Position numbers and translations under genes: made by a program
The notes under the pieces: generated by a model
Database searches by the model: none
What the model saw: the letters and a program-made list of their open reading frames with translations, nothing else
Told to the model about the DNA's origin: nothing
Shown here: in pieces, positions 10,778 through 27,909 of the stretch
Layout of the letters: every line of letters starts with the position of its first letter
Position numbering within the stretch: the first letter of the stretch is position 1
Virus record (IMG/VR): IMGVR_UViG_3300032516_003760
Span: 1 to 28,285 of that record
Origin: a virus
Strand: one strand, 5' to 3'
Length of the DNA stretch: 28,285 bases

Positions 10778-12046
10778 ATGCTACCTTGCTCTTTTTCTCT
10801 GGGAGACTGCCGAGAAGTTCTACGCGGTATTCCAGAAAATCACTTCGACGCTTGCGTGACCGATCCACCTTATGAGCTAGGTTTCATGTGCAAGAGCTGG
10901 GACAGCCGGGGGGTCTCTTTCCAGTCGGAGACCTGGGCGGAGGTCTACCGGGTCCTGAAGCCCGGGGCGCACCTTTTGGCTTTCGGCGGGACACGGACCT
11001 ATCACCGGATTGCCTGCGCGATCGAGGATGCCGGGTTCGAGGTTCGGGATTGCATCATGTGGCTCTACGGGCAAGGCTTCCCGAAGAGTCTGGACGTGAG
11101 CAAGGCGATCGACAAGATGCAGGGGGCTGAACGGGAGGTTGTTTGCCGAAATAGGTATATCGATGGGAGGGAAAGAAAAAATCTTGGGCATGTAGGAACT
11201 GGTTTTATCGGATTGCCTAATGGGGTAATGATGGACTCATTACCCGCTACTGAAGCCGCGAAAAAATGGGAGGGCTGGGGCACCGCACTGAAACCCAGCT
11301 ACGAGCCAATCATCGTGGCCCGCAAGCCTCTGGCGGGGACGGTCGCGCAGAACGTCTTGGAGTACGGGGTCGGTGGGATCAATATCGACGGGTGCCGGAT
11401 ACCGACAACGGATGCTCTCTGCGGTGGCGCGTATAGTGGGGGGCTGCGCCCGAATTCAGCGATGCGCTGCACAGGAGAGGTGGGCGGGAAATCGTCCATC
11501 CTGGAAGCTGGTGGCCCGCGTTTAGAGAAACGGGATTTTGTCCAACCCCCGGGCCGCTGGCCAGCCAACGTGATTCTGGATGAAGAGGCTGGCCAGGCGC
11601 TAGATGAGCAAACTGCTGGCCAATTGCATAGTCCCGGGGGGCAGACTGCTGGCGCTCATTTGAACGTAGCAGATACATATAATGCGAGTTCTATTATGAT
11701 GGGGCGGCATAATACTTTCCGATTTGGGGATGGAAATGAAGGCGCTTCCCGTTTCTTTTACTGCGCCAAGGTCTCCTCCAAAGAGCGCGGCAAGGACAAC
11801 CGCCACCCGACGGTCAAGCCGGTCGCCTTGATGCGCTACCTGGTCAAGCTGGTGACTCCTCCCGACGGTTTGGTGCTCGACCCGTTCATGGGGTCGGGCT
11901 CGACCGGGATTGCTGCGCTCGCCGAGGGATTTTTGTTTCAGGGTATCGAGCAAGAGCTTGAGTATTTCAACCTGGCTAGGCAACGTATTTACAACAGCCT
12001 GCGTAAGCCGGTGACTCAGTGTGAAAAGGCGGCGTCATGCTACTGA
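10778..12046 (+). CDS. DNA methyltransferase, beta-class (N6-adenine or N4-cytosine)
   Basis: The product has 422 residues. Motif IV, DPPYEL, is near residue 30 and the AdoMet-binding motif I, DPFMGSGST, is near residue 370. The DPPY-first order marks the beta class, which transfers a methyl group from AdoMet to N6 of adenine or N4 of cytosine. LGDCREVL precedes DPPY, as is usual. The middle part (about 120-330), with GWGTALKPSYEPI and KDNRHPTVKPVALM, is also typical of phage and orphan methyltransferases. A GTG at 10772 overlapping the previous stop is an alternative start; I prefer the ATG because the N-terminus then fits the family. No restriction enzyme is adjacent, so self-protection of phage DNA is more likely than a restriction-modification pair. 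Parts at about 11140-11260 and 11640-11760 look more AT-rich. Confidence 0.9.
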   Translation: MLPCSFSLGDCREVLRGIPENHFDACVTDPPYELGFMCKSWDSRGVSFQSETWAEVYRVLKPGAHLLAFGGTRTYHRIACAIEDAGFEVRDCIMWLYGQGFPKSLDVSKAIDKMQGAEREVVCRNRYIDGRERKNLGHVGTGFIGLPNGVMMDSLPATEAAKKWEGWGTALKPSYEPIIVARKPLAGTVAQNVLEYGVGGINIDGCRIPTTDALCGGAYSGGLRPNSAMRCTGEVGGKSSILEAGGPRLEKRDFVQPPGRWPANVILDEEAGQALDEQTAGQLHSPGGQTAGAHLNVADTYNASSIMMGRHNTFRFGDGNEGASRFFYCAKVSSKERGKDNRHPTVKPVALMRYLVKLVTPPDGLVLDPFMGSGSTGIAALAEGFLFQGIEQELEYFNLARQRIYNSLRKPVTQCEKAASCY

Positions 12047-15000
12047 CCCCCGAGCAGCTCCAGAAAGTCCAGAAGATCGTGGAGAAGCACCACAACGCCT
12101 TCATCGTCTCGGCCATCGGCCCGGAGGCGGTCGACCCCGCGGTGCTCCAGGAGCTGGAGCAGGCCGGGCTCATCGAGGGGCACCTGAATTCGGTGGAGCA
12201 GGCCTACCTCTACGGCCAGCTCCTGGGGGTGCTCCAGAACAAGGCCGCAGCCAGCATGAGCTTCGACGCTTTCCAGAAATACGTGCGCAAGAACCCCATC
12301 CCGCTTTCGGTCCCCGAGCAGCGGGCGGTGAAGTTCGCCCAGCTCAACGCCGCCGGCTACCTGAAGGGCCTGGGCAACAAGGTCAACCAGCAGACCGGCA
12401 ACATCCTCATCGAGGCCGACGCCAAGCTCCGCGCCAAGCTGGAGAAGATCACCCGGGACAAGACCGCCCAGAATATCGCCAAGCGTGAGACGGCGAAGCA
12501 GCTCAAGAGCGACCTCGGCTGGGCGAGCGAGGACTGGACCCGCGACTGGGATCGCATCGCCGTGACCGAGAAGCAGACGGCCATGCAGACCGGGCTCGCC
12601 GACCACATCGCCAAGCGCTACGGCGAAGACGCCCTGGTAGCAAAGAGGGTAATGCCGGACTCGTGCCGGCATTGCTCGCGGCTCTACGACGGCCCGGACG
12701 GCAATCCGCGCATTTTCCCGCTCTCGGTCCTGGTCGCCAACGGCACCAACGTGGGCAAGAAGACCGCCGAGTGGCAAGCGGTTGTAGGGACGATCCATCC
12801 GCACTGCGCTTGCCAATTACTAAGGATTCCGGACGGTTACGGCTTCAACAAGGAAGGCGAGCTGGTGCCCGGGGGCAAGGGCGGCAAGGTCTACAAGAGC
12901 GAGGCCGAGCTGTGCCGCGCCGTTCTGCGCGAGGACGATCTGCGCAAGGCTCTCTCTGGCGGCGAGCAGCTGGTGCATCTCTGGGGATTGCCCATCCACA
13001 TTGAGAACCCAAAGGGCACCTCGCGGACCTTCCACACCCCGGACGGGGGCACCGACAAGACTTGGATGCTGCACGCCTACGGGGAGATCTTGGGCACCAC
13101 CGGCGCCGACGATGATCCTCTCGACGTGTTCATCGGCCCGGACCCCGACTCCGAGATGGTCTACGTCATCGAGCAGCAGAATCCCGAGACCGGCATCTGG
13201 GACGAGCAGAAGTGCATGCTGGGCTTCTCCAACCAGGAGGACGCCGAGCGCGCCTACGGATTGGCCTACGATCGGCCGGAGAAGTTCTTTCTCCAGACCA
13301 ATCCGATGGAGGTCGAGGCCTTCAAGCGTTGGGTGGGGTTGACCCGGGTGCAGAGCGCCGAGGAGTCGCCCAAGATTCGCCTGGTCATTCCCCTGCCAGG
13401 ATTTGGCAAGAGCGGGCAGGTATCGGCGGACATCGGCGCGGCCACCAGCCAGGAGGGCAACCGCGCGGGCGGCCACGGCACCGCGGCCAACTACTTGGTC
13501 GAGACCCCCAAGCGGCGCGTTCCAGAAAAAGGTCCCAATCCGCACATCGATCCGACTGACTTGCTCCGCGACTGGAAGGATGAGGAGGAAGAGGTCGCCG
13601 AGGGGTTGAAGCGAGACAAGGAGATCTACACGGTCACCGAGCCCCTGCGCAACGTCTATCCGATCGTCTTGCCCGACGCGGCGGTGACCGGGCAGGATTC
13701 TGCCCGGGAGGGAACCGAGGAGCGTAGGCGCTACGTCATCGGCAACGCCGCCAAGGTAGCGCTCCGTCCCCAGGACAAAGCTGACCTGGAGAAGTCGATG
13801 ATCTCGGTTATTGCGACTGGGCCGCGCGGGGGTAAGATCGTCGGCTGGGATGGCTCGACCCCCATCTACCTCCGCAACGGCCAGGAGACCAAGGAGCCGG
13901 GGTGGACTGCGCGGCTCTTGGGCTATCTGAACGGTCACCTGCGTCCGCACCACACCGATCCCGATCTGGTGGTGTTGAAGTTCTCTCCGGGGCACAAGGG
14001 AGTCATCGAGCAGCTACGCAAGCACTTCGGCCTCCAAACGCAGGTCGAGCCTGGCCCAACCTATCACCGGATCACGGTGAGCCGCGCGGTATTCCAGAAA
14101 ATCGAGGACTCCGACCCGCGGGTGATTTTTCCAGAAAAAGAGAAGCCCGCCCCTGCGCCAGCGCCCAAGCCCGCGCCCAAGTCCTCGGCCAAGGCAGACA
14201 TCGTATTCGCTCCAGAAAAAGTAGAGCGGGTGGGCGAGATTCAGCTCGTCCCCAAGAGCGAGATGAAGGTACCGGCGGTACTCAAGGGATTCATGCGCAA
14301 CGGGGCCAAGGTCACTGCGACGGTGAAGGGCAAGAAGCAGGAAGGGACATTCATCGGCACGGATCAAGCAGGGCATCCGATCATTGACTTTGGCCCGGGC
14401 TATCAGGGGCCGCATGATGAGCATCACGCCACCCAACTCCACTTCGCGGACTGGAAGAACTTTGAATCCCATGAGGCGGGCCCTGAGTATTACAAATCCG
14501 CTACCCACGATCTTCCAGACAAGTGTTTCGTTCGCCCTAACGAACGGCACCAGAAGATTCTCGACGAGTTGATGACGACCCCCGCGGTGGGATCGCACAC
14601 GTCTACTGAGTATACCGAATGGTTGTGGAAGCGAGGCCGCGAGACCTATCTGGTTGGCGGGGCGGTGCGCGATCTGCTCAACCTGGTCAAGCCCGGGAGC
14701 GACATCACTGACGAGAAGGTGATTTCCAAGCTCAAGGATTTCGACATGGTGACCACGGCCGATGCGTCGGTCATGAAATCCTGTTTCAATCAGGTTGGCG
14801 CGGATCTGCCCCCGAATAAGCGCATCACAAGCAAGCCTCCTGGGGATGAGGCCTGGATGACTGTTTGCGCAACCAAGAGTGGGCCGGGTATCGACTTGAC
14901 CGGCATGGTGTCCTATACGACGGCGGACGGCGAGCAGTGTGAAAATCCGGTCAACGGCAAGTATTGGCCGGACATCCGAGTGGACCACGAGATGCGCAAG

Positions 15001-15447
15001 GACTACGAGCGCCGCGACTTCACCTGCAACAGCATCTACTACGATCCGAAGAACAAAGTGATCATCGATCCCACTGGTCGCGGCATCGCCGACGCCCAGG
15101 CCATGGTTCTGCGCCTGCCCATCCCGATCAAGGACATGCCCCAGAATGATTCGCTTTCCTGCCGCTATTACAAGTTCCGGATGCGCGACTGGATCCCTGA
15201 CAAGGATACCCACGACCAGTGCATCGCGCACTTCGAGGCGACGTTCAAGCGTCTCGACGTACCGCATCGCGCTGCTATCCTGCACCGTACAATTTGCAAG
15301 AAGGGGGGAACGCCCGAGGAGAATCTGGCCAACTTGCGAAAGATCATGGAGCGGGATGGAGTCGGAGATCTATACGCTGACTACATTGCGGCGGATCACG
15401 CTGCAATTGTTGGGTGGATCAACGAAAAATTAAAAGCGCACAAGTGA
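12037..15447 (+). CDS. MuF-like minor head protein fused to pyrophosphatase-like and CCA-enzyme-type nucleotidyltransferase domains
   Basis: The product has 1136 residues and overlaps the methyltransferase by 10 bp. Residues about 80-265 are MuF-like (Phage_Mu_F): DWDRIAVTEKQTA, CRHC near 210, and HPHCAC near 255. Residues about 300-460 contain DDDPLDVFIGPD near 357, which fits the inorganic pyrophosphatase signature D-x-D-P-L-D-V, and DEQKCMLGFSNQEDAERAYG. This is the pyrophosphatase-like domain found in phage polymorphic toxin-type proteins. A GPRGGKIVGW module lies near 593, then the shared alpha/beta unit (about 630-690) and a basic/Pro linker with three nonamer-like sites. The end (about 865-1050) has YLVGGAVRD, DFDM, RRDFTCNSIYYD and DPTGRGIADAQ. 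These are the hallmarks of the poly(A) polymerase/CCA-adding nucleotidyltransferase head. The MuF part places the protein in the head near the portal; the other domains are likely cargo. Confidence 0.9.
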   Translation: MLLTPEQLQKVQKIVEKHHNAFIVSAIGPEAVDPAVLQELEQAGLIEGHLNSVEQAYLYGQLLGVLQNKAAASMSFDAFQKYVRKNPIPLSVPEQRAVKFAQLNAAGYLKGLGNKVNQQTGNILIEADAKLRAKLEKITRDKTAQNIAKRETAKQLKSDLGWASEDWTRDWDRIAVTEKQTAMQTGLADHIAKRYGEDALVAKRVMPDSCRHCSRLYDGPDGNPRIFPLSVLVANGTNVGKKTAEWQAVVGTIHPHCACQLLRIPDGYGFNKEGELVPGGKGGKVYKSEAELCRAVLREDDLRKALSGGEQLVHLWGLPIHIENPKGTSRTFHTPDGGTDKTWMLHAYGEILGTTGADDDPLDVFIGPDPDSEMVYVIEQQNPETGIWDEQKCMLGFSNQEDAERAYGLAYDRPEKFFLQTNPMEVEAFKRWVGLTRVQSAEESPKIRLVIPLPGFGKSGQVSADIGAATSQEGNRAGGHGTAANYLVETPKRRVPEKGPNPHIDPTDLLRDWKDEEEEVAEGLKRDKEIYTVTEPLRNVYPIVLPDAAVTGQDSAREGTEERRRYVIGNAAKVALRPQDKADLEKSMISVIATGPRGGKIVGWDGSTPIYLRNGQETKEPGWTARLLGYLNGHLRPHHTDPDLVVLKFSPGHKGVIEQLRKHFGLQTQVEPGPTYHRITVSRAVFQKIEDSDPRVIFPEKEKPAPAPAPKPAPKSSAKADIVFAPEKVERVGEIQLVPKSEMKVPAVLKGFMRNGAKVTATVKGKKQEGTFIGTDQAGHPIIDFGPGYQGPHDEHHATQLHFADWKNFESHEAGPEYYKSATHDLPDKCFVRPNERHQKILDELMTTPAVGSHTSTEYTEWLWKRGRETYLVGGAVRDLLNLVKPGSDITDEKVISKLKDFDMVTTADASVMKSCFNQVGADLPPNKRITSKPPGDEAWMTVCATKSGPGIDLTGMVSYTTADGEQCENPVNGKYWPDIRVDHEMRKDYERRDFTCNSIYYDPKNKVIIDPTGRGIADAQAMVLRLPIPIKDMPQNDSLSCRYYKFRMRDWIPDKDTHDQCIAHFEATFKRLDVPHRAAILHRTICKKGGTPEENLANLRKIMERDGVGDLYADYIAADHAAIVGWINEKLKAHK

Positions 15448-23810: not shown

Positions 23811-24149
23811 ATGCGTACCGATCTGGTATACGAGACCCATTGCGTTTCAGACCCCAATTCTCCTATCGGCCGTTTCGGTGTAGTGCGGGGCATGCCTGGG
23901 GGGTTGATGTTACAGACCGACGGCGGGGTAGATCTGGCACTACCCATCGAGGACATTGACGAGCAACTCGTTGACGATTGGCAGAATGGATATCTGGAGA
24001 TCAACACCCCCAAGGGGCATTTCATCCTGAATCGCATCGACAAGGAAGCGGGCGAGGAGCTATCTCCCTTCTGTCCTGGCGCGCCGATAGAATTCGACAC
24101 TGACGCCGCGGCGCAGGCATACTACAAGCAAGCGTTAGGACCAATATGA
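23811..24149 (+). CDS. Small protein of unknown function
   Basis: The product has 112 residues. The ATG follows the giant gene's stop by two bases with GGAG at 23802-23805; a GTG at 23805 overlapping the stop is a less likely start. The product begins with beta-strand-like segments (RFGVVRGMPGGLMLQTDGGVDLAL) and ends in an Ala-rich helix. It is acidic, with no Cys beyond two scattered residues and no membrane segment. Function is unknown. Confidence 0.7.
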   Translation: MRTDLVYETHCVSDPNSPIGRFGVVRGMPGGLMLQTDGGVDLALPIEDIDEQLVDDWQNGYLEINTPKGHFILNRIDKEAGEELSPFCPGAPIEFDTDAAAQAYYKQALGPI

Positions 24150-24352
24150 GATGCCCGCACTGCGATAACCATCTGTTGCAGAAATCTGGAAGCCGAGTTC
24201 GGCTGCGCACCCAAGGCCCGATCGACTTCGACGGCAAGCGCTGCCGGGCGAAGTGCTACTGGTGCGCTTCCCTCGTCGAGCTGCCCATCCAGATTCTGGA
24301 CGGCACCCCGATCAGCCGCGAGCAGTTCATCCTCCCCCGGAAAAGAGATTGA
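24146..24352 (+). CDS. Small zinc-ribbon protein
   Basis: The product has 68 residues. The ATG overlaps the upstream TGA (ATGA), with AGGA five bases before it. The pattern CPHC near residues 3-6 and CYWC near 37-40 predicts one zinc ribbon. There is little else in the protein, so it may be a nucleic-acid- or protein-binding adaptor. It is the last gene of the long transcription unit before the terminator at 24427-24468. Confidence 0.72.
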   Translation: MRCPHCDNHLLQKSGSRVRLRTQGPIDFDGKRCRAKCYWCASLVELPIQILDGTPISREQFILPRKRD

Positions 24353-24376
24353 CAGAATTCTGAAATCGTATACGTT
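24349..24376 (+). promoter_or_regulatory. Putative sigma70-type promoter
   Basis: A perfect -35 box, TTGACA, at 24349-24354 is followed after 16 bp by TACGTT at 24371-24376, which keeps the conserved TA and final T of a -10 box. The spacer and downstream 20 bp are AT-rich in a GC-rich window, and this is one of very few intergenic stretches. A start near 24383 would yield a short transcript ending at the terminator below, or reading through to the protease gene. Confidence 0.45.
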
Positions 24377-24426
24377 GAAATTAATTAGAGATGTGCGGCG
24401 ATAGGCCCAGTACGGTGGTTGCCGGT

Positions 24427-24468
24427 AGGGGCGGACGCTTTGAGTCAAGCGATCCGCCCTATTTTTTT
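24427..24468 (+). terminator. Strong intrinsic terminator upstream of the protease gene
   Basis: The left arm, GGGCGGACGCTT at 24429-24440, pairs with AAGCGATCCGCCC at 24447-24459 with one bulged A and a six-base loop, giving about 12 bp of GC-rich stem. The run TATTTTTTT (24460-24468) follows directly. It separates the long upstream unit from the protease/scaffold/capsid genes. It lies downstream of the promoter-like sequence at 24349 and upstream of the protease ATG, so it could also act as an attenuator or as the end of a small RNA. Confidence 0.8.
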
Positions 24469-24480
24469 GGTGAGGATCAC

Positions 24481-25305
24481 ATGCAGGTATTTGATTTCGA
24501 TCTTCCAGTATCGTTCTTCGAGAAAGCCGACGCGGAGCCGGGCAAAGAACGGCGCATCGGTGGCATCGCTACTCTGGAGACCAAAGATCGCCAGGGAGAA
24601 ATCATCCTTGCCAGAGGGGTCGATTTCTCGGATTTCGTCCAAAATGGGTGGTTCAATGACAACCACTCCAAGAACACCACCGACATTTTGGGCTACCCTG
24701 AGCAGGCCAAGTTTTTCCGAAAGGGATCCGCGCTACCCAATGGCGAGACGGCCAAGGCGGCTGGGCACTGGGTGGAAGGGTATCTGCTCAACACCCCCGG
24801 CGCCGACAAGGTCTGGGAGTTGGGCCGTGCTCTCGCCCAGACCAATCGCCGGCTGGGATTCTCGGTTGAGGGGAAGATCGAGAAGCGCACGGGTCCGCTC
24901 CAGAAAACCATCGCCAAGGCGCTGGTGCGCAATATTGCCATTACTAACTGTCCGGTTAACGCGGGAGCGCGGATGGAGATCTTGGCCAAGAGCCTTCAGG
25001 CAGCGGGGCTCGACGAGGAGATGGAGAAGATGCTGGGCATGGGCACCGCTACGCCTGGCGCTCCGGTCGTTGGCCCGCAGAGCGGCATGGGCGCTGGGCG
25101 GGTGGTCACCGGCGAGAGTCTGGAGCACGACGAGACCAACACCGCGGCAGATGAAGACGAGAAGAAGCGCAAGAAGCGCGTGAAGAAATCCATGACGGAA
25201 GGTGGGGCGTTTGTGTGGCTGCGCGCCCGGCTGCCGCACGCCACCCCGGAACAACTCGGGCGCATCATCACCCTGACCCGTGCCGCTAAAGCGCGGGGCA
25301 AGTGA
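24481..25305 (+). CDS. Prohead protease (HK97-type, serine protease)
   Basis: The product has 274 residues. The assemblin-like fold cleaves scaffold and other head proteins during capsid maturation. The likely catalytic His is H62 in WFNDNHSKN and the likely Ser is S128 in LGFSVEG, the usual spacing for this family. The start of the fold (RIGGIATLETKDRQGEII) and GHWVEGYLL are also typical. Residues after about 185 form an added acidic, then basic tail (KKRKKRVKK) and end in a conserved-looking helix. An ATG at 24391 is in frame, but it would translate the terminator stem. The ATG at 24481 has GGTGAGG at 24469-24475 and begins where the family does. The position just before the scaffold and capsid genes supports the assignment. 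Confidence 0.9.
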   Translation: MQVFDFDLPVSFFEKADAEPGKERRIGGIATLETKDRQGEIILARGVDFSDFVQNGWFNDNHSKNTTDILGYPEQAKFFRKGSALPNGETAKAAGHWVEGYLLNTPGADKVWELGRALAQTNRRLGFSVEGKIEKRTGPLQKTIAKALVRNIAITNCPVNAGARMEILAKSLQAAGLDEEMEKMLGMGTATPGAPVVGPQSGMGAGRVVTGESLEHDETNTAADEDEKKRKKRVKKSMTEGGAFVWLRARLPHATPEQLGRIITLTRAAKARGK

Positions 25306-25316
25306 AGGAGAGAGGC

Positions 25317-26153
25317 ATGGCAACGACCCAGGAGAACGACAAAGTCGATGAGGAAGAGGGCGGAGAAAGCGTGGGCGACGGCCAGGATGAGGGCGAGATG
25401 GACAAGTGCGGCGGCGTGAAGAAGGGCTGCGGCACGAAAAAGGCTGAAGACCTCACCGAGGACGATCTGGAGAAGTCGATCGAGCAGCTCCAGTCGCTCA
25501 CCGAGGGAGCGGGCCCGTCCCGCAAGCAGACGCTCCTGGAGAAGGCCCAGGGCGCCGAGCTATCCAAGAGCGAGCGGATCGAGCTGTTCGAGCTGCTCGG
25601 CAAGAGCGAGGCATCCAAGGCATCGCTCAGCTCCGAGATTACCAAAGGGCTGACCGAGAACGACACGCTGCAGAAGGCGCTCGACGTGAGCGACTTTCTC
25701 ACGGAGCAGCACAACGAGCTGGTCAAGTCGCTGACCGGGCTCGCCGACGCGCTGGAGAAGTCCGACGGCCGACAGCACGAGTTCAACCTGGTGCTTGCCC
25801 GCGCGGTCTCCGGCATCGGCCAGCTGACCAAGGGGCTGGGCGAGCGAGTCGGGATCATCGAGTCCCAACCTGCCCGCGGTCCCAAGAGCAGGGGCGTCAC
25901 CGGCGCACAGGCGCTGGAGAAGTCCTTCGCTGGGGCAACTCAGCCGTCCGGCGGGATCTCCAAGGGGGCGGTGCTCGATGAGCTGGAATTGATGGTCCAG
26001 GAGTCGGTGTCGAAGTCGCTCAACGGAGCGACCGAGGATGGAGTCGATCTGGTCATGGCCAGCTCGAAGTACGAGCAGTTCAATCTGATCAGCCAGGGAT
26101 TGCTCGATCAGGTGCAGCAGAGGATCCAGAGCAAGAAAGCGGCTGCCCGCTGA
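25317..26153 (+). CDS. Putative capsid scaffold protein
   Basis: The product has 278 residues with an AGGAG site six bases before the ATG. The N-terminal 40 residues are very acidic with two Cys. The rest is Lys-, Glu-, Leu- and Ser-rich and predicted helical or coiled-coil, with a few KS-containing repeats (LEKSIEQLQSL, ALEKSDGR, ALEKSFAG). It ends in a Gln/Lys-rich helix. The composition, and the place between the protease and major capsid genes, are those of a scaffolding protein that directs prohead assembly and is later degraded. There is no sequence motif that proves it. An in-frame GTG at 25302 is a poorer start. Confidence 0.7.
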   Translation: MATTQENDKVDEEEGGESVGDGQDEGEMDKCGGVKKGCGTKKAEDLTEDDLEKSIEQLQSLTEGAGPSRKQTLLEKAQGAELSKSERIELFELLGKSEASKASLSSEITKGLTENDTLQKALDVSDFLTEQHNELVKSLTGLADALEKSDGRQHEFNLVLARAVSGIGQLTKGLGERVGIIESQPARGPKSRGVTGAQALEKSFAGATQPSGGISKGAVLDELELMVQESVSKSLNGATEDGVDLVMASSKYEQFNLISQGLLDQVQQRIQSKKAAAR

Positions 26154-26735: not shown

Positions 26736-27909
26736 CGAAGAGCACAACGAGATGAGCCAGTACGGGTCGAACCCGGATGCTGGCTTCATCTCCGAAGGAG
26801 ATCTTCCCGAGGAAGACGACGCGATCTACACGAGAAAATACCACATCGTGAAGTACCTCGGGACCACCCGCAAGGTGTCCCACGTCATGAGCCTGGTGAA
26901 GCCGGCCCATGGCAACGTGGTCGCGCAGGAAACGGTCAACGGCACCATGCACCTGCTCCGGATTCTGGAGCGGGCGCTGTTCTACGGGGACAGCAGCTTG
27001 TCCGCCCTCCAGTTCGACGGCATGGAAAAGCTCATGAAGGATCTGTGCCCGGCGACCAACATCATCGATCTCCGCGGTCTGCCGCTGAGCGAAGATCTGC
27101 TGACAGATGGAGCACTTACGGTCCAAGATGCGCCCAACTACGGCACGCCCACCCACCTTTTCCTGAACCCTAAGACCAAGACGGATTTGGTCAAGACGTT
27201 CTTCCCCAAGGAGCGGCACGACACGTTCCAGAAACAGGGCGGCTTCATCGGTCTCGACATCAAGGGCTTCACGTCCCCTGCCGGTGACGTGCTGTTCGAG
27301 CCAGACGTGTTCATCACCGACGGTGGCGCCCCCAACGCCGGAGCCCTGGGCGACCAGACCAAGCGCCCGGGCACCCCGACCAACTCCACCGGCGCAACCG
27401 CTCCGACGGAGGCGCTGGGCAAGTTCGTGGCCGACGACGCTGGCGACTACCGCTACAAGGTCGTCGCGGTGAACCGCTTCGGCCGTTCGGCTCCGCTGGC
27501 GTTCGGAGCCGCGGTGACCGTGCAGGCTGGCGACAAGGTGACCTTCGGCCTGACCCCCTCCAGCGCGACCACCGGCTGGTACGAGATCTACAGGACGAAG
27601 AAGAACGGCGCGCTCGGCACCGAGCGACTCATCCTCCGGGTGCCCAACGCGGCTGGCGCGGGCGAGACCATCGTCAACGACTTCAACGAGAACCTGCCCG
27701 GCTGCACCTCGGCCTTCCTGTGGCAGCTCAACCTGGAGTCCATGAGTTTCAAGCAGTTAGCCCCGATGGTCAAAATCCCGCTGGCGACAATCGACAGCAG
27801 TATCAGATGGATGCAGCTCCTGTACGGAACTCCCGTACTTTACACACCTGGTAAGAATGTTCTCTACAGGAACATCGGCCGGGCGACGGGGTACGTCGGC
27901 TCACCGTAA
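26736..27909 (+). CDS. Major capsid protein, exon 2 (HK97 fold with Ig/Fn3-like insertion)
   Basis: Exon 2 encodes about 390 residues; an ATG at 26752 makes it look like a separate gene, but it has no ribosome site. It continues the capsid fold with GFISEGDLPEEDD (E-loop region) and YLGTTRKVSHVMSLV, followed by the P-domain helix and beta strands. From about 27370 to 27690 it holds an inserted domain after a Pro/Thr linker. GDYRYKVVAVNRFGRSAPL and GWYEIYRTKK are the strands of an immunoglobulin/fibronectin-III-like fold. HK97 text resumes with TSAFLWQLNLESMSFKQLAP and ends LYRNIGRATGYVGSP. The insertion probably projects from the capsid surface. A nonamer lies at 27226. Confidence 0.9.

Follow-up and report, generated by a model that had tools for sequence, protein, structure and literature searches.

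The timing of phage head gene expression is usually attributed to sigma factors, activators or long-range antiterminators. In riboswitches of the ON type and in antiterminators that depend on a protein, the domain with its ligand is a direct competitor of a terminator or a start-codon hairpin, and both transcriptional and translational platforms occur within one family. The put element of phage HK022 is a phage leader RNA that prevents termination; it acts on RNA polymerase over a long distance and does not pair with the terminator. The Com protein of phage Mu is a small zinc protein encoded just upstream of mom; a structure in the mom leader RNA inhibits expression, and Com binds an adjoining hairpin and activates translation (PMC6483171).

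The locus described here is a leader between the genes for a 68-aa zinc-ribbon protein and a prohead protease. It is found in a virus record of 28,285 nt, the whole of which was analysed and is referred to as the window. The leader is likely to act in cis on the protease-scaffold-capsid operon, as an RNA switch with two states that is operated by an effector. It resembles ON-type riboswitches and antiterminators in having a strand of its P1 helix in common with the terminator, but it controls a phage capsid operon and matches no Rfam family. Like put, it is a phage leader RNA linked to termination control; however, one strand is common to the domain and the adjacent hairpin, which sets the leader apart from the put type. 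The closest known way of working is that of Com and mom, where a small zinc protein gene also lies upstream and the leader structure is inhibitory, as is proposed here. The mom gene is a DNA modification gene, whereas the target here is the head operon, which in most members has a transcription terminator. For Listeria phage CKA15, promoters ahead of the capsid gene are reported, and the available part of that report describes no such leader.

Promoter, RNA domain and terminator ahead of the protease

The original prediction placed a promoter, a strong terminator and then the protease ATG in this order, and all three are present in the window. The -35 element TTGACA (24349..24354) overlaps the end of the zinc-ribbon gene and is followed, after a 16-nt spacer, by a weak -10 element, TACGTT (24371..24376), with a predicted start at about 24383; these and the other leader and gene features given here are on the + strand. 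The intrinsic terminator (24428..24468) consists of a GC-rich bulged hairpin at 24428-24460 (stem 24428-24440/24447-24460), which has an energy of about -22.6 kcal/mol when folded alone, and a run of seven T at 24462-24468. The run is followed by a Shine-Dalgarno-like GGTGAGG (24469..24475, by eye) and the protease ATG at 24481. A generic consensus scan of the window reported neither the leader promoter nor the leader terminator, because the -10 element is weak and the stem is bulged; the scan was set aside as too rigid for the present leader.

The P1 helix is formed by a 5’ strand, GCCC (24405..24408, the antiterminator strand), and a 3’ strand, GGGC (24429..24432). Internal loops at 24409-24412 and 24425-24428 separate P1 from the P2 hairpin (24413..24424), in which CGGT at 24413-24416 pairs with GCCG at 24421-24424. 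The GGGC strand also belongs to the terminator, within its 5’ arm; therefore, P1 and the terminator are mutually exclusive. The isolated domain (P1, loops and P2) folds at -14.0 kcal/mol, and the window leader has a better fold than its dinucleotide shuffles in 195 of 200 cases (z -2.6). For the full leader, the fold of minimum energy contains the terminator, and the P1 5’ strand pairs differently, which counts against the switch model. Extra copies of the GGCCCGKTANGG core with up to two mismatches number 20 in the window against 20.6 expected, so they do not constitute a repeat family.

It had also been suggested that an in-frame ATG at 24391, read across the stem, would allow translation-coupled control. 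The ATG exists and its frame is open to the protease, but such an ATG occurs in one of 69 leaders (the window only) and an open frame in 17 of 69, which does not support this form of control. The same ATG was rejected as the true protease start: in most protein matches the alignment starts at residue 4 as counted from the ATG at 24481, and leaders do not conserve the upstream frame.

The operon comprises the prohead (head maturation) protease (24481..25305; phrog_1028, E 2.3e-33; 36% identity to SPO1 gp3.2), a head scaffolding protein (25302..26153; phrog_15087, E 2.7e-7) and the major head protein (26752..27909; phrog_752, E 3.9e-76; 36% identity to SPO1 gp6.1). The head genes match those of SPO1-like phages and are in the SPO1 order. 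At the DNA level, no relatives of the window were matched among cultured phages. Elsewhere in the window, a 1136-aa protein (12037-15447) carries two domains, inorganic pyrophosphatase and poly(A) polymerase head, and also matches minor head and tRNA nucleotidyltransferase families, and the window starts with 21-nt tandem repeats at 1-74 (CCGCAACCCGGCATGGCACCC).

The promoter spacer contains a possible operator, TTCTGAA (24358..24364), which is near the genome-wide motif TTCCAGAA/TTCTGGAA. The spacer (24355-24370 in the window) holds one of the top five enriched 7-mers of its own record in 17 of 66 loci, against 6.3 expected (sd 2.4). This enrichment suggests a candidate lineage-specific operator in the head-operon promoter. 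Throughout the window, TTCCAGAAA is present 38 times (22 on the + and 16 on the - strand; for example at 386, 409, 436, 3865, 13520, 19121 and 22111), with 0.33 expected under a second-order Markov model; we take this genome-wide motif to be reminiscent of mycobacteriophage stoperators. Two relatives’ records, of 97 and 109 kb, each contain 23 occurrences of CCGTTCCAGAAAA at up to one mismatch; its reversed control is found there 1 and 0 times. Other clades have different enriched words (TTCCGCA, ATTGTCGT and TCCAGAC).

Conservation and covariation in relatives

Protease searches gave 13 loci at first; a larger set followed, made up of the 80 best among 175 relatives in viral contigs together with 4 in genome contigs; 95 further confirmed protease relatives lie outside the leader set. 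Fifteen of the 84 loci were set aside, and the remaining 69 plus the window make 70 distinct leaders. Those set aside had a leader identical or almost identical to that of another locus or of the window (L027, L028, L031, L043, L050, L061, L068, L079, L090, L091, L103 and L107; mostly judged from the listing and printed sequences), were on a contig that starts inside the gene (L086 and L097) or had a run of N (L106). A more distant locus, L013 (34% identity), is outside the 70 and by eye lacks the domain.

Comparison of the leader in relatives had been named as a check on the original prediction. The unit of TTGAC promoter, compact RNA domain, hairpin and protease is conserved in 69 of the 70 leaders; L075, with no detectable element, is the sole exception. 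In 66 of 69 leaders, the 62 nt that precede the domain include TTGAC, while 4.8 are expected from Markov shuffles. The best-scoring -10 is at a spacing of 16-18 in 62 of these 66 and fits TAnnnT in 39, the spacing having been picked by score. A strict signature, GG(CCC/CTC/CCT/TCC) followed by its complement, is present in 42/69 leaders compared with 80/3201 random windows (2.5%). For 63 of 69 leaders, the isolated domain has P1 in its minimum-energy fold. A second domain shape, in 18 leaders, has P2 close to P1 and a RAG-like bulge on the 3’ side.

The pairing of P1 is kept through compensatory changes (GCCC:GGGC, GCTC:GAGC, GCCT:AGGC and GTCC:GGAC). Across the 69 leaders, pair 1 is GC, GU or AU, pair 2 is CG, UG or UA, and pairs 3 and 4 are CG, UA or UG, with one unpaired P1 cell (L056 has one mismatched pair), but these counts are biased because the parser demanded pairing and 22 of the 69 leaders were placed by eye. 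Two sets, of 32 and 18 of the 69 leaders, were aligned with MAFFT, and both alignments inherit the parser or by-eye choice of the P1 region. In the 32-leader alignment, 100% of P1 cells and 74.4% of P2 cells are paired, and the covariation score is 0.358 against 0.170 in shuffles (0/500 as high), with slid versions reaching no more than 0.219. In the 18-leader alignment, P1 is again 100% paired and the score is 0.338 against 0.223 (0/500), with slid versions at or below 0.132.

In P2, each of the four pairs is altered on both sides among the 32 aligned leaders. P1 has only 4 bp; in this alignment two of its pairs are invariant, and variation in a third is confined to one side. The tree of the 69 proteases requires at least two changes for the GCTC/GAGC type of P1. 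Independent contrasts for P1 pair 4 on the protease tree are in the same direction in 3.5-3.7 of 5 cases and opposite in none, which is non-significant alone because the contrasts are too few. On the 5’ side the loop letters of the 32 leaders are approximately G-N-T-A, and on the 3’ side approximately G-G-T-A-G; the conserved columns are 13 (G, 26/32), 39 (T, 28/32) and 41 (G, 32/32).

Terminator and start-codon hairpins as alternative outputs

The middle strand is used by a downstream hairpin in 65 of 69 leaders, and at least four T follow within the next 10 nt in 49 of those 65. In 10 of 69 leaders the protease start codon is inside the hairpin, which represents a translational version of the element. 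The three strands of L099 (GGTCC, GGGAC and CCCATGTCC) are an example of mutual fit. The output type, terminator or translational, needs four changes on the protease tree (hand labels, 15 leaders). Neither a plain terminator nor a stand-alone small RNA explains this pattern well.

An ordinary terminator could insulate a new promoter or end upstream transcription, with P1 being incidental. SPO1 speaks for this, since it has the protease-scaffold-capsid order and, in the interval from portal to protease, a plain hairpin resembling a terminator (L109:2425-2470), without the domain; within the part of SPO1 that was searched, model R1 does not match the P1/P2 domain. However, the covariation of P1 and P2, the excess of the strict signature over random windows and the start-codon hairpins of relatives that have no terminator make this explanation very unlikely for the present leaders.

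The small RNA of about 85 nt in the original prediction would be the terminated product, as promoter and terminator do bracket about this length. A bare small RNA is unlikely to be the main function because 10 of 69 leaders swap the terminator for a start-codon hairpin. It is highly improbable that the terminated 85-nt transcript acts in trans as a small RNA, given that relatives without the terminator retain the domain and have it placed over the protease start. The alternative offered with it, an attenuated leader that works through antitermination, has fared better at the level of sequence: the promoter, an antiterminator-like P1 and a terminator with a shared strand are all conserved. The two-way fold is kept in distant relatives; therefore, the leader is probably a switch. 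It very likely has the anatomy of P1, P2 and shared strand described above, and it probably sets the timing of viral shell production.

Judged by its letters, the leader has the features of the attenuator or riboswitch-like class, namely a promoter-to-gene leader with an intrinsic terminator and a conserved domain helix that excludes the terminator or start-codon hairpin. Rfam 15 covariance models gave no match at the window leader with E up to 10, and none at the leader in 12 relatives’ loci with E up to 1. A literature search at the level of titles, by which absence from print is unproven, surfaced no description of such a leader RNA. As a separate observation, L036 carries a group I intron (L036:4400-4665; Rfam RF00028, E 2.3e-18) among its head genes, 3’ of the protease.

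The element is single in each of the phage records searched with models R1 and R2 and occurs only ahead of the head operon. R1 detected the leader in 10 of 20 records, with no other match at E <0.06. R2 detected it in 6 of 11 records, as judged from the coordinates, with extra matches at E 0.068 in one record and, unassigned, at E 0.148 in one bacterial genome. Neither model is fully sensitive, since in the remaining records even such leaders as are visible by eye were missed.

This distribution bears on the possibility of a small-molecule or ion riboswitch, in which a metabolite reflecting the stage or success of infection would permit head-gene expression. The compact two-helix domain with conserved internal-loop letters would suit such a riboswitch, as would the presence of both transcriptional and translational platforms. 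The restriction of the element to one operon in the records searched, loop letters that are less fixed than those of most riboswitches and the conserved zinc-ribbon gene that adjoins it all point the other way, and this reading is unlikely.

The zinc-ribbon protein and proposed operation of the leader

The 68-aa zinc-ribbon protein of the window (24146..24352), with two CxxC pairs, is encoded directly upstream of the leader and is a candidate regulator. A zinc-ribbon gene (RCPxCxNxLLQKSG...CYWCK) is in the same position in 58 of 69 leaders. L073 and L084 have two more upstream zinc-ribbon genes in which, by eye, the first cysteine pair is degenerate. A search beyond the adjacent position covered L009, L047, L069, L105, L034, L071 and L052. 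The gene occupies another place in the record in the first three of these and is about 770 kb distant in the assembly that contains L105; the fragments with the last three (4.6-17 kb) yielded no match. The records of SPO1, MA9V-3, Lb338-1 and L013, all of which have a related protease without the domain, gave no zinc-ribbon match. The adjacency may be plain synteny.

The AlphaFold2 model of the protein is a beta ribbon with a mean pLDDT of 89.6. For the window protein, no Pfam family scores above cut-off; when Pfam, solved structures and Foldseek were searched with the zinc ribbon, only generic zinc ribbons or zinc fingers came up, with no Foldseek match at E 0.001 or better, and two queries against 50,697 phage records gave no match. 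Comparison with Mu Com by hhalign gives a weak similarity (probability 57.8 over 14 columns). Among 37 members, 18 have weak PHROG matches (E 0.0073 at best) to phrog_6417, ‘translational regulator’, and 2 to gpCom. The Com SELEX motif CC(N)2-3GAG is loosely similar by eye to CC(N)3AG on both loop sides here.

In the proposed mechanism, the unaided RNA would form the terminator or hide the start codon, resulting in little head protein and in the RNA of about 85 nt. An effector on the domain would hold P1 together, block the second hairpin and turn the operon on; that binding corresponds to the ON state is favored, with some reservation. The neighbouring zinc-ribbon protein is the best candidate for the effector, although a tentative one, and would act as Com does on mom mRNA.

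The opposite direction of control would apply in autogenous feedback, where P1 is the default and excess protease, scaffold or capsid protein binds, frees the terminator and lowers expression of the operon. Ribosomal protein leaders provide a parallel, the element precedes exactly the protease, scaffold and capsid genes, and the upstream domain would be transcribed first. However, the conserved neighbour is a different gene, that of the zinc ribbon, and feedback of this kind seems rather improbable.

It is possible, though at present doubtful, that a widespread group of SPO1-like phages, as yet uncultivated, carries a dedicated new RNA switch and an adjoining zinc-ribbon protein which together gate the head operon, the output having been swapped between termination and start-codon masking while the sensing domain was kept. 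The leader offers a small, defined and testable RNA with a candidate partner protein. If the model is true, a capsid-operon RNA switch with interchangeable outputs would be an added regulatory layer in a sizeable group of environmental phages.
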